A stretch of DNA of 64,000 nt from Terriglobales bacterium (lineage in GTDB: Bacteria; Acidobacteriota; Terriglobia; Terriglobales; Acidobacteriaceae), in contig DASPRM010000012.1 of the NCBI GenBank assembly GCA_035624455.1, forward strand, positions 1 through 64,000. The letters are read 5' to 3'. Shown piece after piece: positions 23,342 to 39,145 of the stretch; the first letter of the stretch is position 1; each line of letters starts with the position of its first letter. The notes below the pieces were generated by a model. The model made no database searches. It was not told where the DNA came from and saw only the letters and a list, made by a program, of their open reading frames with translations. Both the position numbers and the translations under genes were made by a program.

Positions 23342-23611
23342 TTACTTGCTTGCGGTGGCCTTCGACCACACGCTGGCATTCATGCACTCGACCACACCGT
23401 CGATGATCTTACTCAAGCCCTCATGAAACTTGGAGTCATCGACGATGTCACGGTTGGCGACTGCTTCCGTCATCGAAAGCGCTGAACTGATAAAGGACAG
23501 TGCAGCCTGCTTCTTGTCGGTGCCGGCGCGTCCGCCGAACAGGGATTCGATACCCTGAACGATGGCCGGAATAAAGGAAAACCCCTGCAACAACTTTGCC
23601 AAGAAACTCAT
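23342..23611 (-). CDS. small phage-region protein, unknown
   Basis: An 89-residue protein with a strong AGGAGA site before its ATG. Residues 1-25 are hydrophobic/amphipathic (FLAKLLQGFSFIPAIVQGIESLFGG); the rest is helical and polar. It is the last gene of the late operon, where lysis or tail-assembly genes often lie, but it matches no lysis family that I recognise. It could be a pore-forming peptide or a virion accessory protein. Confidence 0.65.
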   Translation of the reverse strand: MSFLAKLLQGFSFIPAIVQGIESLFGGRAGTDKKQAALSFISSALSMTEAVANRDIVDDSKFHEGLSKIIDGVVECMNASVWSKATASK

Positions 23612-23667
23612 ACCTCTCTCCTTATGTGAAAGTGAACTTATTCAGCAGCCGGCATTCAGCCAACAAC

Positions 23668-24063
23668 CTAATGGCGGCGGTCGCGCCACTCCCGCTGCCG
23701 CACCAGTTCGGCTTTGATGTCGGCCAATTGCGACATGACGTTGCGGGAGAATTCGTTGAATTGCTCCTGGGCTACCAACTCGTTCGCCGGGCGGATGGTC
23801 TCAATTCTGCGATTGACTTCATCCACCTGCTGCCGCAGCGTGGCGATCTGAACATCCTGTGCGGCGTCGCCGCGAATCTGGGCGGAAACCCATCCCGCGC
23901 CAAACAATGCCAGCGAAACGACTGACGACCATATGACTCGGCGAAATAGCGGCTGCGGACCTGACGAATTGCTGTTGTTCATACTTCTGTTGACTGGCGG
24001 TTGGGCGAAGAGACCGGGCTGAATCATTCGGCTTCGCGCCCGCGGTTCAACTGCAATGCTCAT
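23668..24063 (-). CDS. single-pass membrane protein with coiled coil, phage region
   Basis: A 131-residue protein: a variable N-terminus, one transmembrane helix (about 42-62, VIWSSVVSLALFGAGWVSAQ), then a coiled coil (72-125, VQIATLRQQVDEVNRRIETIR...). The ATG overlaps the stop of the large tail gene as ATGA, showing coupling; a second ATG lies at residue 28. The form recalls spanin or holin-associated proteins, but no lysis function can be assigned. Confidence 0.6.
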   Translation of the reverse strand: MSIAVEPRARSRMIQPGLFAQPPVNRSMNNSNSSGPQPLFRRVIWSSVVSLALFGAGWVSAQIRGDAAQDVQIATLRQQVDEVNRRIETIRPANELVAQEQFNEFSRNVMSQLADIKAELVRQREWRDRRH

Positions 24064-26390
24064 AACGGATAATCCACGTGCAAGAGGGTGGAAAATTCAG
24101 AATAGCGGCGCGGAGTGGAGCCATCATATTGCCGCAGATAATAGTCTTGTGCCCGCGCCAGGCGCGGCACGGTGAAGGTCTGGACCGTGAACCAGGCAAT
24201 CAGGTTGCGATCGTTGCCCGCCTCCCAGCCAGAGTCGCTGCGGCGCACCTCAAATCCGCCACCGGGAGGAGGCGCCACGCCCGCGTCAATCGTCACCCAC
24301 GTGGATGTGAGGTCGACCACTTCCGCCTGCGGCAGGCCGGGAAGCACCGCCGGGTCGGGCTGAATCGTAGTGACCGTGATTTGCGCAATGCCCTGCACGT
24401 GGCTGCTGTCATGATGAAATCCCAGAGGGTCGGCGGCATCATTCGCAAAGGCGATTCTGTATTGGCTTCTGTCCGAGGACAGATCGAGAACAGTGATATC
24501 CACCTGCCGAACCACGGCCTCAAAGCTGCATCCTCGCGACGGGGCGTTTATGCCCAGCCCATCCCCGGGGAAGATGTCGAGCGCTGCATCGGGGAGAAAA
24601 TCGCTCACTGTCTCATAGGTGCCCGACCACGGCTGTTGAGTGCTGTCGTCCAGCATGGCGAGCGCAGCATTGGCGCAATCGCGCGAGGTACGCGGTTCGG
24701 GGATTGCCAGATGGACGACCGAGCCCCGCATTCCATCGTCACCCGGCATTGCCTGGGCGGCGATGTCGGCCGGATCAGTTGCCTGCGCAACTGCTCGTCC
24801 GCTTGTCCGGTAAGAGACCACCAGCTTTTCATTGGCAGCAGGAATGAATGCCGAGTAGAAGGCCAGGTCACCGTTAGACCCCAGCCGGCATTCCGCACCG
24901 TCAGTCAGCGCACCTACTAGGCGTGTGCGATATGGTTGGCCGGGGAGACAGCTGCGTACCACAGCCTCGGGTGCGCGCAACAGTCGTGTGTAGGCAAGCG
25001 CACAGTGCATATCAAGAGCGTTCACGAGCGCGTAAGTACAAACGCCCGGAGCGTTTTGCACGAGGCCATCAAACAACACGGTGGAAGGCGCGACCAGCGA
25101 TACGGGATTATTGGGATCGACGTCATGCACTTCCAGCACAATGCGGACGTCACAAGGGACCTCCTCGCCCCCTAATGCGTTGCCGGCAGGATGCTGCGAT
25201 GCATGGAAGCGTTGTCGCGAACGAAATACCTCCATAGCGTACATACGAGTGCTGATGACGTAGTGGTGTCCGTCGGAGGTCGTGAGTGGCGTTCCGACCG
25301 CCGCGGCATTTATCCAGGCCGAAATCTGAGACTGTGCGCCTGATTTGGTTATACGAAATCCCGCAAGACAATTCGCCAGCGAAACGGAAGATGTGTATAA
25401 ACCGCCGAGAATCCCATCCGATGCAGCAATGAAACTCACATCGCCATGCTGCAATACCACTGCTCCCCCGAGTTCCAGCCGTTCCGCGAACTGAACAACA
25501 GTGGCCCCATCCGCACCCGTCCCATCCTGTATCCAGAGCTTTCCGCTTTGAATAAAAATCGCGCCCTGCGGATCGGTTGGCTTCCACCAGCGTGGATCGA
25601 GGGTTGACTCATACTCTTGTTCGAGTAGAACGTAGTTGCGACGAGCATATGGAGTCTGCGACAAATAAAAGCGGGACGTGACACCATCACCCAGGAAATA
25701 GTCCTTGACGTATGCCCACGGTTCCACCGCGCCGAAAACGGTGATGTCATTCGCGTGCCGTCCACGCGAGACAATCTTCAAGCCGGCGGGCTCAAATTGC
25801 GGCGCTGTTTCGTCCAGCGTATAAGCGTTGGAGTTCAGCGGAGCAAGGATGAGCTTGTGATCCTGAACGCGGTAGCTGCCACGCACACGCAAGCAGATTT
25901 CTGCGGCCTGTTCGGACCAGTTCCGGTCTGAGGCCACGCTGTAGCGCGGAATCACGTCGCAGGGCTGTGCTGGTGTCGTGTCGAGCGTCCCTGGCGCAAG
26001 ATCGTTGGTGAGGGTCGTGAGAATCTCACTTGCTGTGCTTGCGACGAAATCAGCGCGGGACGGGCAGCTCTTGCGGTCGAGCAGATACTCGTCGCTGATC
26101 GTCTTGAGATCGTAGCGATAGACCGGTCCCTGCTCGCCCCAGCCCAGGTACTCGAATGCAGGAGCCTCCGACAAGTATCCGGTGAAGAAGCTGCGTCCAT
26201 CTTCGGCCGCCAGAATCACGCGGGCGCCCGGCACCGGGACCGGCGGTGATTGCGGCGTACCCAACAACGACACGCGCATGGCAGCAGGCTGATTGAGCCT
26301 TCGCTGCACCACTGGCAGACCCTGGGCATCGGTCACACTAGTGTAATCGCGCACTCCGGCGCCATCGAGATTGTCGATTGTCAGCTTCAT
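24060..26390 (-). CDS. large phage tail protein (hub or tip-like)
   Basis: A 776-residue protein, the largest in the region. The N-terminus (MKLTIDNLDGAGVRDYTS... RVILAAEDGRSFFTGYLSEAP) resembles the first barrel of baseplate-hub proteins. The middle is rich in beta strands. The C-terminal 110 residues look like a fibronectin-type III fold (PQAEVVDLTSTWVTIDAGVAP...FTVPRLARAQDYYLRQYD), often used in tail-surface contact. No peptidase or lysozyme motif is seen. It lies directly after the 326-residue tail protein with no tape-measure gene between. Confidence 0.65.
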   Translation of the reverse strand: MKLTIDNLDGAGVRDYTSVTDAQGLPVVQRRLNQPAAMRVSLLGTPQSPPVPVPGARVILAAEDGRSFFTGYLSEAPAFEYLGWGEQGPVYRYDLKTISDEYLLDRKSCPSRADFVASTASEILTTLTNDLAPGTLDTTPAQPCDVIPRYSVASDRNWSEQAAEICLRVRGSYRVQDHKLILAPLNSNAYTLDETAPQFEPAGLKIVSRGRHANDITVFGAVEPWAYVKDYFLGDGVTSRFYLSQTPYARRNYVLLEQEYESTLDPRWWKPTDPQGAIFIQSGKLWIQDGTGADGATVVQFAERLELGGAVVLQHGDVSFIAASDGILGGLYTSSVSLANCLAGFRITKSGAQSQISAWINAAAVGTPLTTSDGHHYVISTRMYAMEVFRSRQRFHASQHPAGNALGGEEVPCDVRIVLEVHDVDPNNPVSLVAPSTVLFDGLVQNAPGVCTYALVNALDMHCALAYTRLLRAPEAVVRSCLPGQPYRTRLVGALTDGAECRLGSNGDLAFYSAFIPAANEKLVVSYRTSGRAVAQATDPADIAAQAMPGDDGMRGSVVHLAIPEPRTSRDCANAALAMLDDSTQQPWSGTYETVSDFLPDAALDIFPGDGLGINAPSRGCSFEAVVRQVDITVLDLSSDRSQYRIAFANDAADPLGFHHDSSHVQGIAQITVTTIQPDPAVLPGLPQAEVVDLTSTWVTIDAGVAPPPGGGFEVRRSDSGWEAGNDRNLIAWFTVQTFTVPRLARAQDYYLRQYDGSTPRRYSEFSTLLHVDYPL

Positions 26391-26472: not shown

Positions 26473-27453
26473 TCAGTACAAGCCTGCAGCCGCGGACGGG
26501 AAGTAGCTCCGGTAGCACACCACCTGCTGGTTGTCGTTGCGATCTATGTATGGCAGAGCAAGGAAGCTGGCCCGCAATGCCCATCCTTGAAATTCGGGAT
26601 CGAGGGCATAGCCAGATTCCGCTGCGGGTGCAGCGCATTGCAACCGCGGATAGTAGAAGCAGATTCGGCCACCCGACGCTGCCTCCACCAATAACAGCGC
26701 TGACCATTCCTGGAAAAAAGATCCTCCCTCACGATCCACAAAAGCACTTATCTTCTGCGCTGCGGCCGCACTTGGGGGCGTCCCGCCGATAAGAGGCTGC
26801 GACAGAATCAGCGAGGTAGTGGTCTTGTCAGCCACTCGTCCAACATTGAACGTGACCCGGCGAACGTAGTCGCGATCGCGCAAAACATCGAGCGGATCGC
26901 TCACGTAAGCGGCGGCGACTCCAGTTCCCACATAACCAGTCTGCTGTTGATAATCCACATCAACGGCGATTATGTCTCCGACACTGAAAGCGTCAACTGC
27001 GCCTATGCCAAGTACGATCTCGCTGGCGGTGGATCCTGAGAGAACTGCAACGGGAGCAATTGCCGATCCGCCTGAGGGCTGCGCGTCGGCATTGGGATCA
27101 GCGGCGAGCACATTCATGTGCTGCGATCCGCCGGCCAGCGCCATCTGCAATTTGCCCCATTCGCAAAACTCCAATTCCAGGCGGGCCCCCAGCTTGGAAC
27201 GATATTGTCCACATGCTGCTCCCCGGGTTCCCGATTGGAGCACGTGCATCTCGGTAATTGCCGTTCGCTTCACTCCGGTTACTAGCCCCAGATCAACCCA
27301 GGGGGATGGTGGGGAGTCCACTGCGAAAGCGCCATGCTTCGCGGGATCGAAGATCACTGGAGTCTCCATCGTGCGATCCACGGGTGCGAAGTACGCTCGT
27401 ACCCGGCTGGCGATCGGCAGCATGTTGGGGCGGAGGGCGATGGCTTCGCTCAT
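26473..27453 (-). CDS. probable phage tail structural protein
   Basis: A 326-residue, strand-rich protein. The start overlaps the previous stop as ATGA, after a GGAGG site. Its position after the tail-completion-like gene is where major tail proteins usually lie. The central GSTASEIVLGIGAVDAFSVGDIIAVDVDYQQQTG segment resembles an inserted beta barrel. I cannot confirm a named family; it could instead be a head-neck adaptor. Confidence 0.55.
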   Translation of the reverse strand: MSEAIALRPNMLPIASRVRAYFAPVDRTMETPVIFDPAKHGAFAVDSPPSPWVDLGLVTGVKRTAITEMHVLQSGTRGAACGQYRSKLGARLELEFCEWGKLQMALAGGSQHMNVLAADPNADAQPSGGSAIAPVAVLSGSTASEIVLGIGAVDAFSVGDIIAVDVDYQQQTGYVGTGVAAAYVSDPLDVLRDRDYVRRVTFNVGRVADKTTTSLILSQPLIGGTPPSAAAAQKISAFVDREGGSFFQEWSALLLVEAASGGRICFYYPRLQCAAPAAESGYALDPEFQGWALRASFLALPYIDRNDNQQVVCYRSYFPSAAAGLY

Positions 27454-27935
27454 ACTGCCACCTCCGAGAAGCAGTACACGATAACTTCGGCGGAGCGCTG
27501 CAGATGCCCGTCGGCATCGACAATCTCGCCCAGCTTGGGACTTGACCAGAAGACGTTCGTACCGAGCGGTGTGGCTGGGGTTTTGCTGTAATCCATGGTG
27601 GCGGTCAACTGGGGCGAGCAGATGGCAAGCAACTCGTCGTCAAGTGCTCCCAGGGTGCGGCCGCGCTCAGCGGCAGAATCGCTGCCCGCAGCGCTGTAAG
27701 AGATTCGGCAGCGCATTTTCATCAGCGCTACGATCCGCGTGGGATCTGCCCGTTCCGCCGAGCCCCAGCTCAGGTAAAAGGCGTTTGGAAACTCCAGCAG
27801 GGCCCTGCTGACCTCGTTGCCACCAATCAGCACTGCCGGCCTGGTCACCCCGCCGGCTTCCAGGGTGCGAGCCGGACTGAGGGCAGCCAACCGGTCGCGC
27901 AGGGCGACATAGAAACTGTCTTTCGCAACTTGCAT
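27450..27935 (-). CDS. probable tail-completion or terminator protein
   Basis: A 161-residue protein starting at MQVAKDSF, after GGAG; the longer frame to 27968 overlaps the preceding gene and is less likely. The sequence (helix, then PAVLIGGNEV... and VEIV-like C-terminal strands AEVIVYCF) fits the size and position of proteins that cap the tail. Assignment is by synteny. Confidence 0.5.
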   Translation of the reverse strand: MQVAKDSFYVALRDRLAALSPARTLEAGGVTRPAVLIGGNEVSRALLEFPNAFYLSWGSAERADPTRIVALMKMRCRISYSAAGSDSAAERGRTLGALDDELLAICSPQLTATMDYSKTPATPLGTNVFWSSPKLGEIVDADGHLQRSAEVIVYCFSEVAV

Positions 27936-27937
27936 GA

Positions 27938-28357
27938 TTACTCCAACACGATCACGCGCAGCAGACACTCGGCGCCCGCAAACCAGACCGCCCGCACGTC
28001 AGCAAGGATCAGCAGTTTGCCTTCGCGCACAAATCCGGCCGCAGCATTCAGCAGGCTGGTACAAAACGATTCGCCTCGCGACTCGACTAGCGCCTGCAGA
28101 GTCTTGGCGGCAATCAGCAGTTCGAACCGGTGCCGACCGGCATGCTTTCCGAGATCACGGACTATGACAGGAAATAGTTCAACATCGTCAGTGGCTGGGG
28201 GATCAATTCCCAGTTCCTGAGGAATACTCGCCGCGCTGGCGGGCGCAGGCAGCCGCAGGATGATGGAAGCCCCGCCCAGGGCGCGCAGCATGGCTTCCGT
28301 CGCGCGCATAGCAGCATTCTCGCGCCCGGAGAGCAGCCGAACCTCGCCGATATCCAT
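27938..28357 (-). CDS. probable head-tail joining protein
   Basis: A 139-residue protein whose ATG overlaps the stop of the connector gene (TGATG). It follows the connector as head-closure proteins do. The fold cannot be read directly; beta strands with a GRHRFELLIAAKTLQALV segment dominate. The product name rests on gene order. Confidence 0.5.
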   Translation of the reverse strand: MDIGEVRLLSGRENAAMRATEAMLRALGGASIILRLPAPASAASIPQELGIDPPATDDVELFPVIVRDLGKHAGRHRFELLIAAKTLQALVESRGESFCTSLLNAAAGFVREGKLLILADVRAVWFAGAECLLRVIVLE

Positions 28358-28977
28358 CAGGCGATCCTCTGAGCCACATAAGGGGCCAGAATCTTGCGCA
28401 CCGTATCGTCGATGAGCGTGTTGGCGAAATATTCCATGTGCATCTGATCCAGCGAATTGGCACGCACATTCAGCGCCGGGGTGGCCTGGGCGTTGCGGAC
28501 GATCTGCACACAGGCAAACTTCACCGCATCGGGAATTTCAGCGAGCCCGGCGTTATATGTGACATCCATTTCGTTGTAGACCAGGCCCAGGGGATTGATC
28601 GGCAGCGTGAGTTCGCCAGTGGTGCTCTGATAATCGATGTTGCTGATATCAAGCTCTGACCACGTGCCCGGAAGACCGAAGATCCTGGCAAAATCATTGG
28701 CCATATTGGCGAGTTCGTCTCCGCGTCGCGGCATCACATAGCGCACCCGCACCGAAATCAGTGGTGTCGTTGCAGGCGCAACTGTCGCCAAGGGCAGATA
28801 GGTGAGACGGGCGGTGTTGCACGCACCGACGCGCACGCGCTCTGCGTATTGCGCCACGCCCAGCGTAGTGCGGCGGCAATGGGCGTCGATCAGCGCCGAG
28901 GCGGCAGCGATCCACGAACTCAGTGTGTCCGCCTCAAGCCCGTGCGCCTCATATTCCGATGGGTCGAGATACTGCAT
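28357..28977 (-). CDS. head-tail connector protein (gp6-like)
   Basis: A 206-residue protein. The N-terminal helix pattern MQYLDPSEYEAHGLEADTLSSWIAAASALIDAHCRR is typical of gp6/gp15-like adaptors that dock under the portal. The C-terminus YNAGLAEIPDAVKFACVQIVRNAQA is the second family block. A CGGAG site lies upstream of the ATG. It lies right after the major capsid gene as expected. Confidence 0.7.
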   Translation of the reverse strand: MQYLDPSEYEAHGLEADTLSSWIAAASALIDAHCRRTTLGVAQYAERVRVGACNTARLTYLPLATVAPATTPLISVRVRYVMPRRGDELANMANDFARIFGLPGTWSELDISNIDYQSTTGELTLPINPLGLVYNEMDVTYNAGLAEIPDAVKFACVQIVRNAQATPALNVRANSLDQMHMEYFANTLIDDTVRKILAPYVAQRIA

Positions 28978-29095: not shown

Positions 29096-30067
29096 CTACC
29101 GATCGACTGTCACAGCGCAGTGCGCGTACGACGCCCCTTTCACGACCACTGCGCCGAATTTCACCACTACCATCTGTGTGGCAAGCGTTCCGGTGAGACC
29201 CAACTGGAACGCCCGGGGATTGGGATCCGTCAGCCAGTGATACTCGATCATGTCCTCGCTGACGATGTAGGCAGGCAGCACCGCGCTTCCGCTGCCAGGT
29301 ACGCCGGTGTAGCCGAGCGACCACTCCGGAATGAGTGGCAGTTCGCCCGCCTGAGTGGAGAGGGTCTTCACGCGAATCCCTGCGGCAACTTCGGCTGTGG
29401 ATAGAACAACGTTGAACTCTGCCTTCATTTCGCGATCGATCAGATCGAGCAATACCGGGTTGGCGTAGATCGCGGTCGGACGGACGGCATACGAGGAATT
29501 GGCCACCATCTGCGCCACCGCCGACTTCAGGCCGTCCACAATGCTGGCGGTTGTAGCGATGGTTGCGGTATTTCCGCCGGCGGTGATCTGCGCCGCCGCG
29601 CCATAGTATTGCGTCGTTGTCGGCGCGCTCAGCGAAGTGTCATTGCCATTCCACAGTGCGACATCATGGGTGCGCATCAGGCCGTCAACAGCATCGGCGA
29701 GGTCTTTGGCCTGCAGGAAGGCAAACTGGCTCTGCTGCGAGCCCACTTCTACGTCAAACAGGTTGTAGTTGATCTGCGAGACCAGCGCCTTTAATGGAAC
29801 GCTGCGCTCCACGCGAGTCGGCGAGGACACGGCAGCCACGATGTTGCGGGGATCGACAAACCCGTTGGCCGGCGTTGGCGACGCGATCGCTGTCTGCTCG
29901 AAGAAGCGCGAGGGATGCCCGGTTGCCGGCACCTGGCGAATGCGCTGCCCGAATACGCCGCGGCGGCGCACGATGTCGGTGATCTCGGATTGGTAGCGAT
30001 TGACCTCCACCGCGCCCGGCCCGAGAAAGTCGGCCGCCGCGTGCAGGTCCAGGAACTGTGCTTTCAT
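29096..30067 (-). CDS. major capsid protein
   Basis: A 323-residue protein in the usual place after scaffold-like and protease-like genes. The N-terminus has RYQSEITDIVRRRGVFGQRIRQVPATGHPSRFFEQTAI; the middle (RSVPLKALVSQINYNLFDVEVG, AKDLADAVDGLMRTHDVALWNGNDT) matches HK97-fold capsids that span the E-loop and spine helix; the end is ILATQMVVVKFGAVVVKG-like strands. Family membership beyond the HK97 fold is not certain. A GGAG site precedes the ATG. Confidence 0.75.
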   Translation of the reverse strand: MKAQFLDLHAAADFLGPGAVEVNRYQSEITDIVRRRGVFGQRIRQVPATGHPSRFFEQTAIASPTPANGFVDPRNIVAAVSSPTRVERSVPLKALVSQINYNLFDVEVGSQQSQFAFLQAKDLADAVDGLMRTHDVALWNGNDTSLSAPTTTQYYGAAAQITAGGNTATIATTASIVDGLKSAVAQMVANSSYAVRPTAIYANPVLLDLIDREMKAEFNVVLSTAEVAAGIRVKTLSTQAGELPLIPEWSLGYTGVPGSGSAVLPAYIVSEDMIEYHWLTDPNPRAFQLGLTGTLATQMVVVKFGAVVVKGASYAHCAVTVDR

Positions 30068-30139: not shown

Positions 30140-30565
30140 TTATTCCAATAGCCCCGCTCTGGCCATCTCCGCTTTCACCGCGATCCGCTGTTCCGGACTG
30201 AGAGACGAAAGTGCTTTGTCCAGCACTGCAGGCTCGACGACTTCCGGCACTTCATTTTTGGCCAGTAGCGAAGAGACTAGAGGCGAGAGTGTTTTGCGCG
30301 CCAAACGCGCAGCTTGAGCCTTCAGGTCGGAGTTGGCGCGCTCCAGTTCCGCTATCCGCTCTCTCCATTCGCTGTCCGGTTGCGCACGGTCACTTTCGCT
30401 ACGCTCGAGCAAACGTTCGTCGATTGCCGCCACGATGCGCTCAACCTTCGCACTAAGCTCTTCCTGCTGTGCACTCAGTCGTGCTAAAGCGCTTTCGAGG
30501 GCTTCGGCAGCCGCTGCCAGGCGATCCGTGCTGGCTGTGAGTTGTTGACTGACTGGTTCGTCCAT
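30140..30565 (-). CDS. scaffold-like coiled-coil protein
   Basis: A 141-residue, highly charged helical protein (SQQLTASTDRLAAAAEALESALARLSAQQEEL..., ERIAELERANSDLKAQAARLARK), followed by a short C-terminal helix. I chose the ATG at 30565, which has AGGAG before it. Its position between the protease-like and capsid genes, and its coiled-coil content, suit a scaffolding protein that shapes the procapsid. Confidence 0.6.
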   Translation of the reverse strand: MDEPVSQQLTASTDRLAAAAEALESALARLSAQQEELSAKVERIVAAIDERLLERSESDRAQPDSEWRERIAELERANSDLKAQAARLARKTLSPLVSSLLAKNEVPEVVEPAVLDKALSSLSPEQRIAVKAEMARAGLLE

Positions 30566-30581
30566 TCGATCTCCTTTGAAT

Positions 30582-31295
30582 TTAATTGCGGGCGAGTTCA
30601 ATCCAGGTGCTGCCGTAAGCCGCCTTGTCGGCCCACAGTACTGCTGCCCCCGTGAACGTGAATTGCGTCACTACCCAAACGTCGGCCCGCAGGTCCGCCA
30701 CCCGGGCTTCGGCGATCTCGTACGACATGCCCAAACGGCGAATTGATTCGCCGGCTAGGTTTATGTTGGTCTTGCTGGAAACACCACGAGCGCGGAGCAA
30801 TCGCGCGTTTAAGGCCGGCGTGTCATGGTCCGACGGAAGATTGATCGCAACTGCACGCGGTGATGCTACTGGCCCGAGCTCTCGATCTCTTTCGCCAGCT
30901 CCTGCTTTCCCGGATTGCAGCTTGATTTCTTTCACGATGTCTGGAAAGTCGCGCGCAAACAGATAACCTTCTACCTGCAACGACGCCCGCCTTCCGACCG
31001 CTCTTCTGCCGCTCGTCGCCAGCGACAACACCTCCGCGCCAGTAATGACTCCGACCTTCCGGCGTGCATCGTGCCGGTCCAGTGAAGGCGAGTAGTCCAG
31101 TCCCATGCCGAGCAGTGACGGCAAAGCTTCATCCACCGCAGCCCGCGTGAGCAGCACACGATGTCCACGCGCTCCCGACGGCGGCTTATCCGAAGGAATA
31201 TCCACCATGGTGAGCGCGCCACGGAATGGCACCCGGTTGGGGTGGCCATCCACTCGCGGCAGGTCAATTGCCATCGATTGCAGATCGAATTCCAT
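30582..31295 (-). CDS. probable prohead protease
   Basis: A 237-residue protein between portal and scaffold. The DYSPSLDRHDARRKVGVITGAEV block and the C-terminal SYEIAEARVADLRADVWVVTQFTFTGAAVLWADKAAY resemble capsid maturation proteases of tailed phages. The catalytic histidine/serine pair cannot be fixed by eye: His in LDRHDARRK is the best candidate. A clear AAGGA site precedes the ATG. Confidence 0.55.
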   Translation of the reverse strand: MEFDLQSMAIDLPRVDGHPNRVPFRGALTMVDIPSDKPPSGARGHRVLLTRAAVDEALPSLLGMGLDYSPSLDRHDARRKVGVITGAEVLSLATSGRRAVGRRASLQVEGYLFARDFPDIVKEIKLQSGKAGAGERDRELGPVASPRAVAINLPSDHDTPALNARLLRARGVSSKTNINLAGESIRRLGMSYEIAEARVADLRADVWVVTQFTFTGAAVLWADKAAYGSTWIELARN

Positions 31296-31343: not shown

Positions 31344-32561
31344 TCAGGCTGAACGAGTTGGCAGCGGTGCCAGACCCCTCATGTCTCGTACTTCGTTCAC
31401 CGTAAGCACGCCATTGCGCAGCAGGATCTCGTCAATTTCTGCTTGCTCGCGGGCATTGGTCGTGTCCAAGTCGGTGAAGGCAAATTCCAGATCATTCCAT
31501 CCCAGCTTCTTGCTGATCACATCGCGCGTGATGTGTTCCGCGAACAAACGAGCGGAGGGAACAACCGCGTTCTGAAAAGCATCGTTGGAGAGCTGCCCCG
31601 CCGTGGAGCGGTTCACATCGTGCTCCAATCCCAGAAACATCGGTGGCAGGTCGAAAGCATCAGCGATGACGCGCAACAAAAAGGACTGCCATTCCAGACG
31701 CAGATCGGCATCGGTGCCTCCGCCGAACCGCAGCACCTCGGGCTTCTGCTCGACCGACAGAATCGGAACTCGCCCCGTGCCTTCAATCTCGTCTTGCCAC
31801 CAGCGGATCAGGCGTTCATGATGCGACGGCGTCAGATCCTGCAGCCACAGTGCGTACTGCACTACGGTGTTGCTCGCCAGCCTGGCGGCGTAACGATGAG
31901 CGCCCAGAAATTCGTTGATCGTTTCAAACGCCACCTCTACCCGGCCCAGTCCGAATGGAGTGTGAGTTCGGGGATTCAGCCGCACATACATCAGGTCTTC
32001 GTCGTTCAGAACGATGTTGCCTTCCGGACCGTAGCGGCCGGTCACCTGAACATAACGCGGCGAGTTCGGCTGACCGTCCCAGTCGGAACGCATGCGAATG
32101 GTCGCGCCATCCACCGGCCACAAGACCACCGGGCGATTGGGGTCAGCTGTGGCCACAATCTCCGCCGCTCCGAACCCACCCACGATGATGTCTTCCAGCA
32201 CCTGTTCCGCGAAGGAACGAAAGGAATCGTCCGGATTGGGCGCTTCGAGCGCCTCCGTCAGCGCCTGAACTCGCTCAGGACCCGCAGGTAATTCGGACAA
32301 CGCGCGTCCCTTGCGCGGCTGCACTCTCCAGTGCATGCCAGCAATGCGGTCCTTGATCGTATTAATCGCCTTGCGCGCCACCGGCGTCTCAGCAAACTTG
32401 CGCAGGTTCGAAGGCGTGGGCTTGGGCAGCGCGTTTGTCGGCGTTGCATAGGTTGTAAGGATTGAGGGCAGGGCAATGGTGCGCCGCTTTTCAGGTTTGG
32501 CGGCGAGCGCACCTCCGCCCAGCCGGCGCAGGGCGCCGAACAATCCGTCTTTGATGTTCAT
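31344..32561 (-). CDS. phage portal protein
   Basis: A 405-residue portal subunit; twelve of these form the DNA entry ring. Typical segments are RKAINTIKDRIAGMHWRVQPRKG, DLMYVRLNPRTHTPFGLGRVEVAFETINEFLGAHRYAARLASNTV, RLEWQSFLLRVIADAFDLPPMFLGLEHDVNRSTAGQLSNDAF (the family's stem helix and the LP-P-x-F-LG motif) and the C-terminal ILLRNGVLTVNEVRDMRGLAPLP. The ATG at 32561 is preferred; the frame is open 15 codons further. It is separated from the terminase by the HipA-like/DUF3037 pair. Confidence 0.85.
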   Translation of the reverse strand: MNIKDGLFGALRRLGGGALAAKPEKRRTIALPSILTTYATPTNALPKPTPSNLRKFAETPVARKAINTIKDRIAGMHWRVQPRKGRALSELPAGPERVQALTEALEAPNPDDSFRSFAEQVLEDIIVGGFGAAEIVATADPNRPVVLWPVDGATIRMRSDWDGQPNSPRYVQVTGRYGPEGNIVLNDEDLMYVRLNPRTHTPFGLGRVEVAFETINEFLGAHRYAARLASNTVVQYALWLQDLTPSHHERLIRWWQDEIEGTGRVPILSVEQKPEVLRFGGGTDADLRLEWQSFLLRVIADAFDLPPMFLGLEHDVNRSTAGQLSNDAFQNAVVPSARLFAEHITRDVISKKLGWNDLEFAFTDLDTTNAREQAEIDEILLRNGVLTVNEVRDMRGLAPLPTRSA

Positions 32562-32612
32562 GATTTGTTTTTGAACCTGTTTGTGGTGCGTTACGACGAG
32601 GTACAAAGCAAG

Positions 32613-33419
32613 CTAAGCGTGCATGTCGATGCGTATCTTCTCCGCGATCTCTGGCAATGATTCGGTGGTCGCCAGCACTATGCCTGCGCTCTCCATCTTC
32701 TTCAGTGCGAATCGCGTTTCCGAATCCGAGCGATCCAAAGTCTCGACAATCGCGGTCAACTCGCTGCTGGCATTCTCCAACCGCTGGATTCCGGCCTGAA
32801 TCTCCGGATAAGTGAGCGCCAGGATGCGCGCCGGCTCTACCGAGGTCTGCACCGATACTGCGTGAATCAGCTTCACAATTCCGTTCGGGCGGTAGCCGCA
32901 ATCGATCTTCAGCGGATCATCTGCGTCCGTGTATCTGGCTATGCTGATGTCCTTGAACAGCAGATCCCAGACGCCAGTACGACGAAACGCGCTCTGCATT
33001 AGGCCACGAATCGCCCGTCGTCCTGTGAGCTCGCGCTTGCCGGTGACGCGTGGTTCCACGTACATCTCGGCCAGGCGGTCGACCTCTTCCGCCGGCGCGT
33101 CACTAAGCACTGCGGCAGGTGGCGTCAATTCGATGCTGTTTGAAAGATACTGCTCCAGCCTGCCCAGAATCAGCTCGCCCTCAGCCCCAGCGTTGAGCAG
33201 CATTCGCAAATCGGTTTCCAGCGACTCCAGGACTTCGATGTCCGCCGCCGGATTCAAGCAACGCACTCGCCGCCAGTCGCGCGTGAAACGCACATCGGCA
33301 AAATCGCTTCCGCCTTCGCTGTGCGATCGGAAGAGTACGCCGATATTGACGAACTCTCCCTTCACCACGTCCGGCATGTAGCGGACAAGCGAAAACTCGC
33401 ATTTGCTGTGCTGCGCCAT
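32613..33419 (-). CDS. DUF3037-family protein
   Basis: A 268-residue protein starting at the ATG at 33419. The opening CEFSLVRYMPDVVKGEFVNIGVLF is the hallmark of the DUF3037 family, whose function is unknown. The rest is helical with a basic C-terminus. It begins 8 bases after the HipA-like gene's stop, so the two are co-translated. DUF3037 genes are commonly found next to HipA-like kinases, as recalled from family knowledge. It interrupts the packaging genes. Confidence 0.8.
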   Translation of the reverse strand: MAQHSKCEFSLVRYMPDVVKGEFVNIGVLFRSHSEGGSDFADVRFTRDWRRVRCLNPAADIEVLESLETDLRMLLNAGAEGELILGRLEQYLSNSIELTPPAAVLSDAPAEEVDRLAEMYVEPRVTGKRELTGRRAIRGLMQSAFRRTGVWDLLFKDISIARYTDADDPLKIDCGYRPNGIVKLIHAVSVQTSVEPARILALTYPEIQAGIQRLENASSELTAIVETLDRSDSETRFALKKMESAGIVLATTESLPEIAEKIRIDMHA

Positions 33420-33427
33420 AGGTTGTG

Positions 33428-34315
33428 CTAGTTCCAACGACTCGGATCAGCTTCCACGAATCCGCCGATGACCGCCAACTGTTCTCCCCCCGCAGGCGTT
33501 TCCTGCACTCGCCCACGGCCCCTCCAATTAGGAAACGGATGCCGCGTGGAGTTACGAAAATCGTCGATCAGCCGGCGCGCCATGGATCGCCTCTGCGCCA
33601 ACTTGCTGACCAGTTGTTCCATCGCGTCCAAGTCGTGACCGTACCATCCCGGGGGAATGGTTTCGGCCACAGACCACACTTCCTCTACGTCCATCTGCTC
33701 GAGACGCGATAGCCAGGGCTCAAACGACTCCCACCCCGTTACGCCCACATACACATCGTTGCGGAGGTACACGCCGCGCAGCGGCGAATCTTCGAAGGTC
33801 CACTCCCCCGCGTTGAAGCAGTACCCCTGATCGATGAATGCCGCGGTGAACTTCCGCTCCCGGCCTTTTTTCCAGAAGGCTGCCTGGCGGCCATTCGCGT
33901 TGCAGGTCCATTTGTCCAATGCGAGCATGCCGGCAAAGGCCTCAAGGTTGCGGACTCGACCGATCATCGCTTCAGGAAGATAATCGAACACCTCGCCTTC
34001 CCGAGGATCCACCACGTAGCGCGACCCGAACTGCAGTCCCGCCTGGCAGCGGATCGTCTGCTGCGCCAACTGCATGTGCAGCTCGGGTGTGTGCTCGATC
34101 AGCCAATCACTCACTTCTACCACTTCACTCACCGCCACTGGCAATCCCAATCGCTCTGCCAGCCGCGACGCAAATAAGTCATTCGCCAGCACCCGCGGAT
34201 GTTGTGGGTTGTTCTGAAACTTCACCACGTAATAATAGCCGTCATCGGCACGCATTAGATGGCTCTGCGCACCGCCTCGCATCCGGCGGATGTGCTGAAC
34301 GGCTACGACAGGCAA
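33428..34315 (-). CDS. HipA-like kinase
   Basis: A 295-residue protein with a kinase-like fold of the HipA-like group. Lys32 in YYVVKF is the probable ATP-binding lysine. DKWTCNANGRQAAF (134-147) stands where HipA has its catalytic DRHxxN loop, and FIDQGYCF (160-167) where it has the metal-binding DFG-type motif. A TTG start follows an AGAGG site. There is no HipB antitoxin gene beside it; the DUF3037 gene is the partner. It lies between terminase and portal genes, so it may be a cargo gene. Substrate unknown. Confidence 0.75.
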   Translation of the reverse strand: MPVVAVQHIRRMRGGAQSHLMRADDGYYYVVKFQNNPQHPRVLANDLFASRLAERLGLPVAVSEVVEVSDWLIEHTPELHMQLAQQTIRCQAGLQFGSRYVVDPREGEVFDYLPEAMIGRVRNLEAFAGMLALDKWTCNANGRQAAFWKKGRERKFTAAFIDQGYCFNAGEWTFEDSPLRGVYLRNDVYVGVTGWESFEPWLSRLEQMDVEEVWSVAETIPPGWYGHDLDAMEQLVSKLAQRRSMARRLIDDFRNSTRHPFPNWRGRGRVQETPAGGEQLAVIGGFVEADPSRWN

Positions 34316-34473: not shown

Positions 34474-36099
34474 TCATCCCCTCCCGACGCCTCTAAGCTC
34501 GAGTCTGCAGTTCCTGGCATCACAGCTGGTGTCGCCTCTTACTGCCAGTGCGATCGCCATAGCCATCACGCAATCGTCGTGGCTGCCGGAAGCGGCTCGC
34601 GACGAGCCATCGGCGGAGCGCACAAATGTCCTGCATTCCCGCAACAGCCGAGGGCTGTTGAACCATTCCGGATGCAGGCTCAGAATTGCGGCAAAATTCT
34701 CGATCATTACCGGACGGCTGGCCACCGACGTCAACCAACCCTGCTGCGAACCCTGGGCGTAGACGTTTGCGTACTTCAGTACGGCAGTCAGATGGGCCAG
34801 CACGGCGTGACCATGATTATTTCTCTCCACGGCTACCAACGCTGTCCCATATTCTCGGCCCAGGTCCGCAACCCGCCTGGCAAGCTCCTGCGGAGTAAAG
34901 TGCCCCAGCAGTTCCGCACACTGGCGTCCGTCCCAGCGATCGATTACCTGGGCACAGGCGCTATCCCCATCGCACCCTCCGCCTGCCGGATCTACGCCAA
35001 TGATGTAATCGCGTCCAAGCTGCGCCGGCCACCAGATCAGCAGACGCCCGCTATCGCGGCTTTCGGCGACCAGAGCGTCCCCGTCGCGATCCACAGATGC
35101 TTTAAGCCGGGACTCAAGGATTTCCAGATCGAAAACACATTCGCCCGAAGCGAGGAAGCAGGATTCCGGATCTTCAGCAAACTCTTGCGCAGCCAACCCG
35201 CGAAAGTTCGCACGGATCTGTCTGCGGTACGCAATTTGCTCCTGATCCAGGCCAACTTGGGTGATCAGGTTCCGTTCTTCTTCGCTGAAACAGTCGACGA
35301 ACGCGCCCGCGCAGCGATAAGAACGATCCAGCCACCAGGGGAAAAAATGCTTTACATAGCCGGTGCGATCCGCCTGCTCCCACTCCTGATAGAAGACATC
35401 TCCAAGTCCATTGGGAGTGCTTTCTAAGACAATCTGGCCTTGCGGCGGCACTGCGGCGCGGAGTGATGCCAGCACCTCCGCCCCGTCACGCGGCCAGCGT
35501 GCCACCTCCGAGCAGTGCAGGTTGTTGATCGTCAGGCCTCGGCCCGCATTCGGGTCGGCGGCGGTCTCTACCCGGTATTCGCTATCCAGGTCGGGATACG
35601 CCAGTTGCCTGACGTTCGCCCGCGAGGTTTTCAGCACTCCCGTACGCAGCCAGTCCGGCAAGTTCTCCTGGAACCGGCGCACGATACGGAAGATTTCTTC
35701 CGCTGAGTCCTGATCGTGGGCAACCTGTACACTCAGGCTGCCCGGCCGCGTGACGGTATCGATGAAGAAACGTGCTGCCACATAAGTTGTGATCCCCAGT
35801 TGCCGTGCTTTGAGCACAATGTTGCGTGGGCCCCAGCGCTCATCCATCTGCCTCTGCGCCCGATTGAGATTGAACGGGACATGCGCTCCCCTTTTGTTGC
35901 GAATGCGCAGCCATGCCTCGAAGAGGCACTCCCTTCCCGTCCACCCGCAGCCCAGGCGTTCCTGCAAGCGATCGCCATAGGCGATCAGGACCTCACGGTC
36001 CCTTCGCGGATCTCCTAATTCTGGATTTTTATGGGTTTTAGCAAACTCGCCTGTCAAACTCGCAGGCAAATCTAAGAAAGCAGAATTATTTCCAGACAA
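34474..36099 (-). CDS. terminase large subunit
   Basis: A 541-residue DNA-packaging motor. The ATPase part has the Walker A-like KARQLGITT (97-105) and Walker B glutamate Glu198 in NNLHCSEVARWP. The nuclease part has Asp370 in YIIGVDPAGGG, Glu425 in VAVERNNHG and the Asp508/509 pair in SGSHDDCVMAMAIAL, so both activities look intact. No small terminase subunit is recognised upstream. A 158-base gap separates it from the HipA-like gene downstream. Confidence 0.92.
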   Translation of the reverse strand: MSGNNSAFLDLPASLTGEFAKTHKNPELGDPRRDREVLIAYGDRLQERLGCGWTGRECLFEAWLRIRNKRGAHVPFNLNRAQRQMDERWGPRNIVLKARQLGITTYVAARFFIDTVTRPGSLSVQVAHDQDSAEEIFRIVRRFQENLPDWLRTGVLKTSRANVRQLAYPDLDSEYRVETAADPNAGRGLTINNLHCSEVARWPRDGAEVLASLRAAVPPQGQIVLESTPNGLGDVFYQEWEQADRTGYVKHFFPWWLDRSYRCAGAFVDCFSEEERNLITQVGLDQEQIAYRRQIRANFRGLAAQEFAEDPESCFLASGECVFDLEILESRLKASVDRDGDALVAESRDSGRLLIWWPAQLGRDYIIGVDPAGGGCDGDSACAQVIDRWDGRQCAELLGHFTPQELARRVADLGREYGTALVAVERNNHGHAVLAHLTAVLKYANVYAQGSQQGWLTSVASRPVMIENFAAILSLHPEWFNSPRLLRECRTFVRSADGSSRAASGSHDDCVMAMAIALAVRGDTSCDARNCRLELRGVGRG

Positions 36100-36116: not shown

Positions 36117-36581
36117 TTACTGCTTCGCCGCGTTTTCCGCGGTCACAAACGTTCTCATGTAGTCCTCGACACTGCGCACGTAAACATCCGCCAGATCCAC
36201 TACATGCCGGCGCGACTCCAGCATCTCCGCCGCATCCCGAGACGAATAACCCAGAACGCGCAGAATGGCCAGCGCCATCATGGGCGCGCGGTGAACTCCC
36301 GCGGCACAGTGAATCAAAAGCTTGCCTTCCGGGCGATCCAGGACTCGCAGAGCGAAATCCACTCCCCGCTGAAATACGTGTGGCGGCTTGGGCTGAAAAT
36401 CATCATCCACCGGATTCCACAACACTTCAATGCTGTAAGGTTCCGCCAGTTCCGTATCATCAAACTCAATCTGCATATCGATGATGTGGGTGACACCGGC
36501 GCGCGCCACTTCGATCATCTTGTCTTTCGTCCAGATGCCGCCACCGACTGCGATCCGGTCGGTGATCCACGTCATATCCAT
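36117..36581 (-). CDS. dual-specificity-type protein phosphatase
   Basis: A 154-residue cysteine phosphatase starting at MDMTWITDRIAVGG (ATG 36581, with GAAGG upstream). The signature HCAAGVHRAP gives the CX5R loop with Cys92 and Arg98; the general acid lies in NPVDDDF (about 59-61). IDMQIEFDD and YSSRDAAEMLESRR are typical. It probably removes phosphate from proteins or RNA/nucleotides. It ends 17 bases before the terminase start, so it belongs to the phage operon; such an enzyme is unusual there. Confidence 0.85.
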   Translation of the reverse strand: MDMTWITDRIAVGGGIWTKDKMIEVARAGVTHIIDMQIEFDDTELAEPYSIEVLWNPVDDDFQPKPPHVFQRGVDFALRVLDRPEGKLLIHCAAGVHRAPMMALAILRVLGYSSRDAAEMLESRRHVVDLADVYVRSVEDYMRTFVTAENAAKQ

Positions 36582-36935
36582 GGTGGAACCTTCTTCTCCT
36601 CGCGCCCTGCAACTTGGATGCGCGCTTGCCGTGAACCGACTTGCTGCCATTTTAAAGCACTGCAACTGTCGTTCGCGAAATCTCCGCTGTTCCGGCGTAA
36701 CCAGTGTCCACCTTCGGAGGTAACATCCTCACCGAGGTCTCTGACGGTCAAAAAGAACGGCGCAGCGCCGACTTCGGCCGGCTGCTGCGCCGCAACTTCA
36801 GGAGGAAACCTTCAATTTTCCCTTACATTTTCAGAATACCAAGTTTGACAGGGTATTTGGGACATTCTGCCCGGTACTTTATTAATCCTCTTTCCAGCAA
36901 GTTACACAGAAAACCCCAAAATACCCCTCTTGACA
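36582..36935. other. untranslated gap between the sigma-like gene and the phosphatase
   Basis: This 354-base space has no supported gene. It is AT-richer near 36830-36940 and contains related short words (AATACC, GGGTATTTGGGACA, AAAATACCCC) in both orientations, which may be binding sites or secondary structure. A promoter for the phosphatase-terminase block would fit here, but I see no convincing -35/-10 pair. Confidence 0.4.
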
Positions 36936-37592
36936 TTACATCCTCCGGACCGAGTCCGCGGATACGGCCTCGGCGAGCAAGAACCATTTTGCTTCCCGCA
37001 ACAGCGTAGCATCGCTTAGATCCTCGCCACAGTCGGGCTCCGGATCGGGAGGCTGAACGTTCTCGCTCATGTTAAGCGTGGCCGCCTTAAGCACTACGTC
37101 CGGCCGGGATTGCGGTCGTGCCGCGTTTTGCCTGGGATTGACGTTGCTCAGCGGCTCGAGCAATCCCCGTTCCAGAAAAAGGGCCGTGACGGCATCCAGG
37201 GCCTCGGGATATTTCCGAAGCACCGTCTTCCGGGAACAGCCCATCATCAGCGCCGTCTCCTCCTGCGTGTAGTCCTGGAAAACACGCCGCGCAATCAGTC
37301 GCTGTGTCTCCAAATCCAGTTCCTCGAGACAACGTTCAACGTCATGCACGAAGATAACTGCATCTTCGAAACTGTTCATGCGGTAGGAGGTGACGCGCGT
37401 ACGGAAGAACTCGCGCCCCAGCAGGGAAGGAAGCCTCCCCAGTTCCACAGACATGCGAAAGTACTTACGCAGACAGGCCTCTGTGCGAACGCGGTACAAG
37501 CAGAGATCGGCGGCATTCCCTTCCAGGGTCAGCCCCACATTCGGTGAGGCATAAATGGATTCTGTCAGTTCAAGCGCAGGCTCTAAACGCAA
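36936..37592 (-). CDS. sigma-70 region-4-like DNA-binding protein
   Basis: A 218-residue protein from a TTG at 37592 (GGGGGT upstream), which overlaps the stop of the Zn-ribbon gene. The segment VERCLEELDLETQRLIARRVFQDYTQEETALMMGCSRKTVLRKYPEALDAVTALFLERG is a helix-turn-helix of sigma region 4 type. No region 2 is visible, so it is more likely a phage transcription activator or a divergent sigma than a full sigma factor. It is the second gene of the leftward operon. Confidence 0.6.
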   Translation of the reverse strand: MRLEPALELTESIYASPNVGLTLEGNAADLCLYRVRTEACLRKYFRMSVELGRLPSLLGREFFRTRVTSYRMNSFEDAVIFVHDVERCLEELDLETQRLIARRVFQDYTQEETALMMGCSRKTVLRKYPEALDAVTALFLERGLLEPLSNVNPRQNAARPQSRPDVVLKAATLNMSENVQPPDPEPDCGEDLSDATLLREAKWFLLAEAVSADSVRRM

Positions 37593-37882
37593 TTTACACC
37601 CCCAGCGCACTCGGCCTGCGCGATTTCCAGCACTTCAGGATGCTGGATCTCAGGAGTGTTCCAACCATGGGTTGCATGATTGATGCGACCCGATGCCCTC
37701 GTCCTTCGCCGATAGCGTCTCGCCGGCGAGATCTGGTCAGATGGCAGTAATTCCTGGAGTTGCAGCGTGCAACTTCCACAATAAGCATGCATGCTGCCTT
37801 GCGGACGCAACCACAGTCCGCCACAGCGCTCGCAATATTTCAGCTCAAGCTTTTGTTCTTGGTGTGGCGCGCATTCCAACAT
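37583..37882 (-). CDS. small zinc-ribbon protein
   Basis: A 99-residue protein with two CxxC pairs, YCERCGGLW and YCGSCTLQ, forming a zinc ribbon. The ATG follows a good GGAGAC site. It is the first gene of the leftward operon, facing the repressor. The C-terminal part is low in order and basic. Perhaps an early regulator; family unknown. Confidence 0.55.
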   Translation of the reverse strand: MLECAPHQEQKLELKYCERCGGLWLRPQGSMHAYCGSCTLQLQELLPSDQISPARRYRRRTRASGRINHATHGWNTPEIQHPEVLEIAQAECAGGVNCV

Positions 37883-37934: not shown

Positions 37935-38168
37935 ATGGAAAGCGATCCCGGCGCCGGCCAGTTCGTTTTGGGGAGGATCGACCGAAGCAGGATTCGCAGG
38001 ATGAAAGACCTCAAAGACCTCTTTGGGAAGCAGATTTTTCGCAAGCCTGAATCTTCCCTTGCGTCTGCTCGCTCGGCGGGCCAGACTATGTGCGCCCATT
38101 TCGTCTCAGATTCCGAAGAGCTGATACCTGTCTTGGCTTCCGGGCTCCTATGCTGTACCGCCGGTTGA
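37935..38168 (+). CDS. doubtful small rightward gene
   Basis: A 77-residue frame with a good GGGAGAAAGG site before its ATG and a basic helical core (RSRIRRMKDLKDLFGKQIFRKPE). It lies in the control region opposite the leftward operon. No family is recognised, and the site could be chance. I record it because of the ribosome site alone. Confidence 0.25.
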   Translation: MESDPGAGQFVLGRIDRSRIRRMKDLKDLFGKQIFRKPESSLASARSAGQTMCAHFVSDSEELIPVLASGLLCCTAG

Positions 38169-38351
38169 GTGTGTTCGTGTACTTGCCAGCACACAGGGGA
38201 AAATTCCTGTGGGCATATTTCTGGTAATCCATTTTCAGTACGGGCCATTTTGGAGGAGGAGAGGCAGGGCAACTATCACGCTCCCGGGTAATATCTTTTA
38301 GAAATACGTTCTGTTATCGTCTATAGCTTTTTGAAAATCTCGTGGTCAACT

Positions 38352-38373
38352 GGAAAGCATACGAAATGCTTCC
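38352..38373. promoter_or_regulatory. candidate repressor operator
   Basis: GGAAAGCAT and ATGCTTCC form an imperfect inverted repeat around ACGAA, 26 bases before the repressor start. Repressors of this class bind such dyads between their own gene and the divergent phage genes, so the location is right. The symmetry is off by one base. Confidence 0.4.
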
Positions 38374-38398
38374 GGACTGATGAGGCACGTCTCCCCAA

Positions 38399-39145
38399 AT
38401 GGGAAGAGCCATCCAAACGTCTCTCACCTTCCGCAGTTTGCAGGATCGCCTGCGCGACTTGCTCCTTGCCCGCATTGCCAGTGGCGAAATCACCGGTCTG
38501 CGGTTAGCCGAACTCAGTGGACTGCGGCAGGCGCACATCTCCAATTTCCTGAATCGCCGTCGCCGCCTCAGCCTGGAAGCCATGGATGCTGTGCTGGCCG
38601 TTTGTCGGCTTTCACCGCTTGATCTCTTGTCCGGCGCGGAAATCAATCGCCGCGCCACTGTACGGCCCCCAGCCGCCACTGGGTTTGTCAACCTCGCCCT
38701 CGTCGAGCCGGCGATTGCCGCGCAGGAGCCGTTCATTCGTCAGCAAAACGTCCTCGGACTGCATCAATATCCCACTACCTTCCTTCGCCGACTTCGCCGC
38801 GATATGCAGAGTCCGCGTCAAGAATGGGAGCGCTTCGTGCTTGTCCGTGCCAGCGCGCATGAAGGCATCAGCATGTTCCCGCGATTCTTGCCAGGGGCTT
38901 TGCTTCTCATTGATCGCCAGTACAACTCACTTCAGCCCTATCGCAAACACGACCGCAACATGTACGCTGTGCGCTCCGGTGCCGATGGCTCATGCACGAT
39001 CAGCTATGTAGAGCTTTCTGGATCGAATCTGCTGCTGCGGCCCCATAACCGCGACTATCCGGTGATTGTGCTGCCCTTGGAGCAAGGACGAACCTACGCC
39101 GAGAAGATCGTGGGACGAATCTGCCATGTGACGATGGAGGCGTGA
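38399..39145 (+). CDS. HTH/S24-type phage repressor-like protein
   Basis: A 248-residue protein with an N-terminal Cro/CI helix-turn-helix (about 30-77, GLRLAELSGLRQAHISNFLNRRRRLSLEAMDAVLAVC) and a C-terminal S24 peptidase-like domain. The serine motif is present (EGISMFPRFLPGALLLID, Ser158). The place where the catalytic lysine should be (normally TVKR) reads TISYVE, so self-cleavage is doubtful. It is transcribed away from the phage operon and is the natural candidate for its repressor. Confidence 0.8.
   Translation: MGRAIQTSLTFRSLQDRLRDLLLARIASGEITGLRLAELSGLRQAHISNFLNRRRRLSLEAMDAVLAVCRLSPLDLLSGAEINRRATVRPPAATGFVNLALVEPAIAAQEPFIRQQNVLGLHQYPTTFLRRLRRDMQSPRQEWERFVLVRASAHEGISMFPRFLPGALLLIDRQYNSLQPYRKHDRNMYAVRSGADGSCTISYVELSGSNLLLRPHNRDYPVIVLPLEQGRTYAEKIVGRICHVTMEA

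Follow-up and report, generated by a model that had tools for sequence, protein, structure and literature searches.

To our knowledge, gene transfer agents (GTAs) of known genetic basis are few. The viriform criteria for a GTA, in the part of the classification consulted (PMC9662315), comprise an endogenised element often spread over several loci, vertical co-diversification with the host, a head too small for the agent's own genes, packaging of host DNA and its delivery; the Caulobacter GTA cluster is given as longer than 15 kb in the sections of its description used here (PMC13236601). The window analysed here is a 64,000-nucleotide stretch (positions 1 to 64,000 of contig DASPRM010000012.1, assembly GCA_035624455.1) from a Terriglobales bacterium of the family Acidobacteriaceae, and it holds a minus-strand operon of phage packaging, head and tail genes that spans 36099 to 23342 from the terminase to its last gene, with neighbours overlapping or at most 158 bp apart. 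A member of this family of loci has been in print before: in the acidobacterial survey of Eichorst et al. 2018 (PMC5900883), cluster 153 is called prophages and potentially new viral groups, and one of its six members, KBS 89 scaffold00005 60,000-90,000, overlaps a relative of our operon (L083, 71,193-92,410 of KBS 89 scaffold00005.5). Judging from these overlapping scaffold coordinates of one strain, the two are very likely the same locus. In what was consulted on cluster 153, neither vertical inheritance nor common flanks nor remnants of loss are tested and the cluster is not read as a GTA, and a search of the open-access PMC literature (bioRxiv lay outside its scope) found no GTA claim for the Acidobacteria. 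Our best explanation of the whole, to which we give a probability of roughly 0.6, is that of a domesticated phage operon, inherited with its host and put to a GTA-like use; as it is known here from its genes alone, we call it GTA-like and not a proven GTA.

Of 300 genomes sampled from the window's family, 178 carry the portal gene, covering 54 of 79 genera, with 170 matches at E ≤ 3e-80; the remaining eight are weak (E 1e-10 to 1e-22) and probably represent other portals. A sample of the whole phylum gave portals in 36 of 396 genomes, all of the same family, and one of the class in 49 of 250, two of them outside it, while an order-level sample (capsid in 157 of 249, the genomes listed all being of this family) added little to the family sample. 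Gene content and order were compared in two sets: 80 public loci, which ranked best among 183 confirmed ones and where contig ends and a 10-kb flank limit make the counts lower bounds, and 61 genomes, namely the window's and 60 fetched from the 170 with strong portal matches, chosen so as to have long contigs and to come from different genera. By tblastn, the 80 loci carry the terminase large subunit (TerL) in 69, a HipA-like kinase (HipA2) in 73, a DUF3037 gene in 77, tail tube in 66, hub in 63, capsid in 53 and the pyruvate-dehydrogenase E2 gene in 37; the corresponding numbers for the 61 portal genomes are TerL 60, HipA2 59, DUF3037 60, tube 57, hub 57 and capsid 54. The protease, scaffold and capsid block directly follows the portal in 51 of 80 loci, and in 25 of 80 the hub takes this place, with the block lying upstream instead. 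Seven loci seemed to lack the capsid in their 20-kb regions, all of the moved-block type and from a single genus (g34); loss was ruled out, since in each of the seven the capsid gene is located upstream of the portal at a distance of about 11-13 kb, and g34 thus represents a rearrangement.

The chromosomal setting is shared as well. Within the fetched stretch, E2 is present in 35 of 61 genomes; with purE-purK accepted as an alternative to E2, the numbers are 46 of 61 genomes and 43 of 80 loci, these being cut by contig and fetch ends. A further case comes from a second family, f7, to which the two outside genomes of the class sample belong and which is labelled as belonging to the same class as the window, not the same order. 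In genome G460 of this family, the genes run CysMet, MltD, S24, Zn, sig, TerL, HipA2, DUF3037 and portal, and on through protease, scaffold, capsid, adaptor, tail genes and hub to c2, E2 and E1b; this is the order of the window with the same genes on both flanks, and locus and flanks are similarly diverged. An earlier reading of this DNA, made from the letters and their open reading frames (ORFs) and here called the sequence-only reading, had suggested looking for the same operon at the same place in relatives, and the shared order and neighbours answer to that expectation. It had also named a single strain with decaying frames as a counter-case; the window has kept its frames open, and the homologous ORFs of most relatives come close to full length. 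Two odd copies may be mentioned here. In G445 of another family (L299/L300), the portal is split over two frames and the terminase stands apart on the other strand, so that this copy appears to be decaying, and a contig titled Rhodanobacteraceae (L106, CAJCHN010000029.1) bears the acidobacterial locus with E2, LplA, E3 and ALAD neighbours and is probably a mislabelled or mixed bin.

The operon genes have largely followed their hosts. RpoB, its frame selected by motif, was matched in 57 of the 61 genomes, and 56 were used after a partial copy (G055) was dropped. Protein distances of 11 operon genes correlate with those of RpoB over 40-56 genomes with Spearman coefficients of 0.64-0.83, against a maximum of 0.23 in 200 label shuffles. 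Trees of nine operon genes and of RpoB, built with FastTree and its local support values for the 48 genomes with at least seven of the nine genes, have 23 of 45 splits in common (200 shuffles gave a mean of 0.26 and a maximum of 2), and 22 of the 25 RpoB splits with support of at least 0.95 are recovered in the operon tree. Inheritance is hence mostly vertical with host-congruent phylogenies, as described for GTAs. Selection was gauged by the ratio of nonsynonymous to synonymous substitution rates (dN/dS) in up to nine pairs per gene, hand-picked among the closest, with dS near or at saturation in some. Median values are 0.134 for portal, 0.146 for TerL, 0.068 for capsid, 0.146 for hub, 0.135 for HipA2 and 0.116 for DUF3037, the gene medians overall lying at about 0.07-0.23 with the scaffold highest at 0.233. 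The purifying selection on terminase, portal and capsid that the sequence-only reading had proposed to look for is thus borne out.

Absence of the locus was likewise informative. Of 15 portal-less family genomes chosen, 13 were read at the E2 site (G027 and G105 were left out), and 11 of these 13 hold remnants there, be it the S24, zinc-ribbon or sigma-like genes, c2 or g89, tail genes, or the HipA2-DUF3037 pair, as is predicted by repeated loss from an occupied ancestral site. Three (G049, G147 and G157) have kept the pair there but no recognisable virion genes. The other two of the 13, G127 and G015, show nothing recognisable at the E2 site; G015 carries a weak match to a different portal (1.9e-14).

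Neither an integrase nor an att-like repeat was found at the locus. The tyrosine integrase family PF00589, the only recombinase family searched for genome-wide, has three matches in this genome, all on other contigs, and Pfam scans of 50 window ORFs, 20 of them from the locus and the other 30 mainly from the flanks, gave no recombinase of any type. The 20 locus ORFs scanned include no replication gene, the window has no tRNA gene, and no 12-mer is common to the two boundary regions, hence no att-like repeat. The flanks consist of ordinary chromosomal genes, and the GC content of the locus (0.586) resembles theirs (0.581 and 0.566). In each of these respects, namely the missing integrase, the att repeats that it had proposed to check and the base composition it had judged by eye to be like the flanks, the sequence-only reading has held up. 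Its suggestion of domestication is well supported by the shared locus, the purifying selection, the host-congruent trees and the failure to find an integrase or att-like repeat.

The virion genes begin with TerL (34474..36099; all genes of the operon lie on the minus strand), which matches a PHROG terminase at 7e-33 and Pfam Terminase_6C at 4e-6, and whose key residues, at what we take to be the ATPase and nuclease motif positions, show no variation in 56-57 aligned sequences. The portal (31344..32606) matches PF04860 at 8e-50. The protein in the prohead-protease position (30582..31295) has no family match, its putative role following from position and from a match to a larger phage protein, and it is followed by a scaffold-like coiled-coil protein (30140..30601) found by sequence scans; the profiles of these two match one single ORF in six phage contigs. 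The major capsid protein (29096..30067) matches SU10_MCP at 1e-4, slightly below the Pfam cut-off, and is the best-conserved gene of the operon, with a mean identity of 77% among 49 genomes. A head-tail adaptor (28357..28977; phrog_442, 2.3e-14) is followed by two conserved proteins assigned from position only, g139 (27938..28357) to the neck and g172 (27450..27968) to the tail terminator. For g326 (26473..27453), the predicted fold (mean pLDDT 82) has phage tail tubes as its best PDB matches, and that of the 776-residue g776 (24060..26390; pLDDT 91) resembles Mu gp44 and relatives over its Mu gp44/T4 gp27-like part, which suggests a tail hub or tip; its C-terminal domain looks FN3-like by eye. 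The operon closes with g131 (23668..24063), which by eye has a membrane segment and a coiled coil, occupies the slot of an 80-residue coil-and-membrane gene of relatives (c2) and might, as a guess, act in lysis, and with the small conserved 89-residue g89 (23342..23611; phrog_36560, 2.8e-5), matched by tblastn in 27 of 80 loci. The tight operon with terminase, portal, scaffold, capsid, connector and tail genes that the sequence-only reading had described is therefore real on the evidence of Pfam and PHROG matches, predicted folds and gene spacing. The operon is not all structural, as had been thought: a HipA-like kinase and a DUF3037 gene are embedded in it, a tape measure is not recognised, and the earlier inventory, right in its structural set, missed this putative toxin-antitoxin pair as well as the phosphatase gene and regulators upstream.

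The tail is peculiar. No tape-measure gene is recognised in the locus, and the 82-bp gap between tube and hub genes in the window is too small for one. With no known length ruler beside tube and hub, the tail predicted from these genes has about an even chance of being a stub or unusually short. In most relatives the terminase is preceded by a long gene of fibre-like type (c1 or c5). Of the 37 c1 proteins with their start in view, 29 have a strongly hydrophobic, secretion-like N terminus; scored in this way, such a terminus is seen in none of 65 hub proteins, none of 54 capsid proteins and 2 of 81 portals. On another contig of the window's genome (C156, L229:10350-17657) lies a fibre-like ORF of 2435 residues, which has a hydrophobic N terminus and domains resembling pectate lyase and laminin G, and the start of which is related to the pre-terminase gene of relatives; a reading in which the window has lost its fibre gene is softened accordingly. 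The locus is thus fully endogenised and of phage origin, with a fibre-like gene elsewhere in the genome, in keeping with the several loci of many GTAs. In L088, L090, L092, L107 and L110, a small membrane protein (c8) and a C92-like cysteine peptidase (c7, a weak Pfam match) lie upstream of TerL, possibly a lysis cassette of some relatives, and none is seen in the window.

The non-virion genes within the operon are the HipA-like kinase HipA2 (33428..34315; PADLOC PDC-M66A, 1.5e-9) and the DUF3037 gene (32613..33437; PDC-M66B, 1.5e-7), which lie adjacent to each other and together correspond to the definition of the PDC-M66 module. They sit between terminase and portal in 59 (HipA2) and 60 (DUF3037) of 61 loci; in G293, HipA2 is missing from the stretch merely through a contig end and was found on another contig end. 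In HipA2, conservation across 50 orthologs is at least 95% for the residues K32, D134, N139 and D162, presumably those of the kinase. The pair is not confined to this operon: of 300 family genomes, 205 carry HipA2 relatives (E ≤ 1e-50), portal-less ones among them, and G031 has the phage operon without the pair and a 66% identical HipA2 relative elsewhere in its genome. The kinase family is expanded in genus g50, with eight HipA2-like matches in G133 and several in further genomes. The same two-gene pair is known as PDC-M66 or DS-6 from the Retron-Sda1 study, from which the assignment as putative toxin (HipA2) and antitoxin (DUF3037) is taken: in the experiments seen there, a homologous pair protected a laboratory E. 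coli strain from phage Bas51, removal of HipA abolished the defence and removal of DUF3037 rendered the construct toxic (PMC12548924). In the lambdoid Escherichia phage PhiR5_1, a pair annotated as HipA toxin and HipD antitoxin adjoins cI, whereas that of the window is fixed between terminase and portal.

Upstream of the terminase, and adjoining it in the window, lies a dual-specificity phosphatase gene (36117..36665, minus); most relatives place the long fibre-like gene between the two. In several relatives the phosphatase stands beside the regulator or the fibre-like gene, and in the portal-less G049 it is kept together with HipA2-DUF3037. There follow a sigma-region-4-like regulator (36936..37610, minus), detected by Pfam and PHROG scans and a candidate activator of the operon, and a small zinc-ribbon protein (37583..37882, minus; a weak Pfam match) that adjoins the regulator in relatives. 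A divergent XRE-S24 regulator of CI/LexA type (38399..39145, plus), also found by both scans, lies beyond these genes. In an alignment inspected by eye, the Ser that we expect to be catalytic is kept in two of ten covering sequences (the window's and L064) and the Lys, likewise at the position we assume for it, in none of six, being replaced in the window copy; the catalytic dyad thus looks degraded, which makes ordinary RecA-stimulated self-cleavage unlikely for this protein. Adjoining the regulator gene is a 71-residue ORF (39333-39548, plus), with matches near the site in several relatives, some without phage genes, and next to the locus lies a small Lys/Ala-rich protein (39657-40070) that by eye resembles histone H1.

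Among isolate phages, no close relative of the portal is seen, identities being 22-27% among the matches listed. The loci of the family and of f7 form one clade against the phages in the portal tree (support 0.977) and likewise in the adaptor tree (0.974). Two scans of IMG/VR gave 34 loci, some on shared contigs. In 33 of these, one with no more than two genes, operon genes are present with identities like those of the locus, and IMG/VR thus stores fragments of it as viral contigs; the last, L271, is a different phage, which, unlike the window locus, has a contractile sheath and a tape measure. Sheath-bearing contigs of this type and the 120,726-bp L314 (IMGVR_UViG_3300025581_000001) have related portal, protease, capsid and adaptor genes. 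L314 in addition has a related tail-tube gene, matched by the g326 profile at 1e-52, and behind it an extra ORF of at least 1346 residues, a tape measure by position and length only that has no PHROG match. No HipA-DUF3037 profile match was found in the examined stretches of L314 and the sheath-bearing contigs.

Several observations weigh against domestication followed by vertical descent towards a GTA-like use. RpoB is contradicted by 2 of the 32 operon splits supported at 0.95; the figures are 6 of 33 for a support of 0.9 and 15 of 40 for 0.5, and some transfer or tree error therefore exists. In the capsid tree, four large-phage contigs from IMG/VR (L308-L311, 74-214 kb) nest inside the locus clade, with support of 0.85 for the family clade that includes them; their capsids share 66-67% identity with that of the window, which would suit a passage of the capsid gene between the locus and free phages, and a scan of L309 gave DNA ligase, polynucleotide kinase, RNA ligase and tRNA nucleotidyltransferase. 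The operon evolves under looser constraint than RpoB (median dN/dS 0.046), with single values up to 0.35 in one pair of g172. About 43% of the sampled family genomes, some of them incomplete, are portal-less, and f7 has the portal in 3 of 89 genomes and lacks it in 86, so the locus is dispensable; the genomes compared were, moreover, selected for a portal on a long contig. Neither a small terminase nor an endolysin is recognised in the locus, the fibre-like gene c1/c5 is missing from the window's site, and the tape-measure profile phrog_28 is matched in 0 of 14 genomes against 6 of 14 controls, a single profile beside which a divergent tape measure elsewhere is possible.

How far, then, do other explanations account for the same facts? 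That ordinary prophages have integrated repeatedly beside the pyruvate-dehydrogenase operon would suit the CI-like regulator, the patchy presence and the publication of at least one copy within a prophage cluster, in the part of that report seen (PMC5900883). The integrase, att sites and mobility of a temperate prophage are, however, not what the locus displays: no integrase was found on the contig or in the window and no att-like repeat at its boundaries, the gene trees follow RpoB, 11 of 13 portal-less sites hold remnants and are not clean and empty, and the same genes flank it in another family, so that we regard this reading as largely refuted. Capsid-forming satellites of the phage-inducible chromosomal island (PICI) kind carry their own integrase and a primase/replication module. 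A satellite of this sort, borrowing tail or lysis parts from helper phages, would fit the CI-like regulator, the length of about 15 kb and the combination of head genes and a reduced tail, yet an integrase was not found, none of the 20 locus ORFs is a replication gene, the locus has tube and hub genes of its own, and it is co-inherited with the host and not mobile; we consider this, too, highly improbable.

Both remaining alternatives accept long residence in the chromosome. The HipA-DUF3037 pair might maintain the locus as an addiction or defence module, with the phage genes as slowly decaying passengers, as could be argued from its near-constant presence in the loci and its solitary survival at three of the 13 portal-less sites. 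We think this unlikely, for the structural genes are under purifying selection with mostly full-length frames, eight other portal-less genomes retain regulators, small genes or tail genes without the pair, and G031 retains the phage genes with no pair in the locus. A domesticated particle with a function other than DNA transfer deserves more thought, be it an inter-strain killing or defence particle armed with the HipA toxin or a stub-tailed capsid used otherwise: a tape measure is not recognised, an anti-phage or toxin pair sits at the core of the operon, and vertical inheritance with selection would suit any use that benefits the host. Selected terminase and portal genes with invariant TerL residues are nevertheless hard to explain without DNA packaging, the capsid is the best-conserved gene, and we view such a particle as a doubtful, if real, contender to the GTA-like reading.

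We propose the following course of events for a domesticated, GTA-like operon. A phage operon for head, packaging and a short tail would have been captured early in this group of soil Acidobacteria, probably once, fixed beside the pyruvate-dehydrogenase operon and thereafter inherited vertically and lost repeatedly. The operon probably still builds a DNA-filled capsid, and we lean towards a particle that packages host DNA and passes it to kin, that is, a gene transfer agent. Silencing by the divergent CI/LexA-like regulator, with the sigma-region-4-like gene switching the operon on, has in our estimate even odds. The HipA kinase and DUF3037 may equally well be or not be part of the machine; if they are, they could arrest or kill the producer, guard it against real phages, or both, and act as an addiction module that retains the locus.

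With RcGTA (Rhodogtaviriformidae) and the Caulobacter GTA, as far as the cited portion of the classification goes (PMC9662315), the locus shares a phage-derived head-tail cluster, integrase and replication genes that are not found, conservation deep within a clade and congruence with the host. It departs from the alphaproteobacterial GTAs in the embedded HipA-DUF3037 pair, the unrecognised tape measure, the regulator with a degraded dyad, a portal without a close named-phage relative and its phylum; this separation is by description. The Rhodogtaviriformidae are marked by genes homologous to the RcGTA head-tail cluster and an alphaproteobacterial host, and the window's relatives are titled Acidobacteria. 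We would put forward only tentatively, at somewhat less than even odds, an independent GTA lineage older than the split of the two families, with built-in HipA-DUF3037 control of cell fate and a tape-measure-free tail. Were this so, an abundant soil phylum would hold a further GTA lineage, present in over half of the genomes sampled from a large family, and would offer an independent test of why bacteria retain costly gene-transfer particles. The case also cautions that loci read as prophages, and metagenome contigs in a viral collection, can be plain inherited chromosome. A defence module in control of the GTA producer has a precedent, since in the sections seen of the Caulobacter study the defence-type system LypABC, which is CARD-NLR-like and is not described there as a relative of HipA or DUF3037, is needed for GTA release and lysis and has thus been adopted to govern the fate of the producer cell (PMC13236601). 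By analogy, the HipA-DUF3037 pair may control the producer here, and its fixed place within a packaging operon, in parallel to LypABC, makes the payment of producers for release a testable matter.

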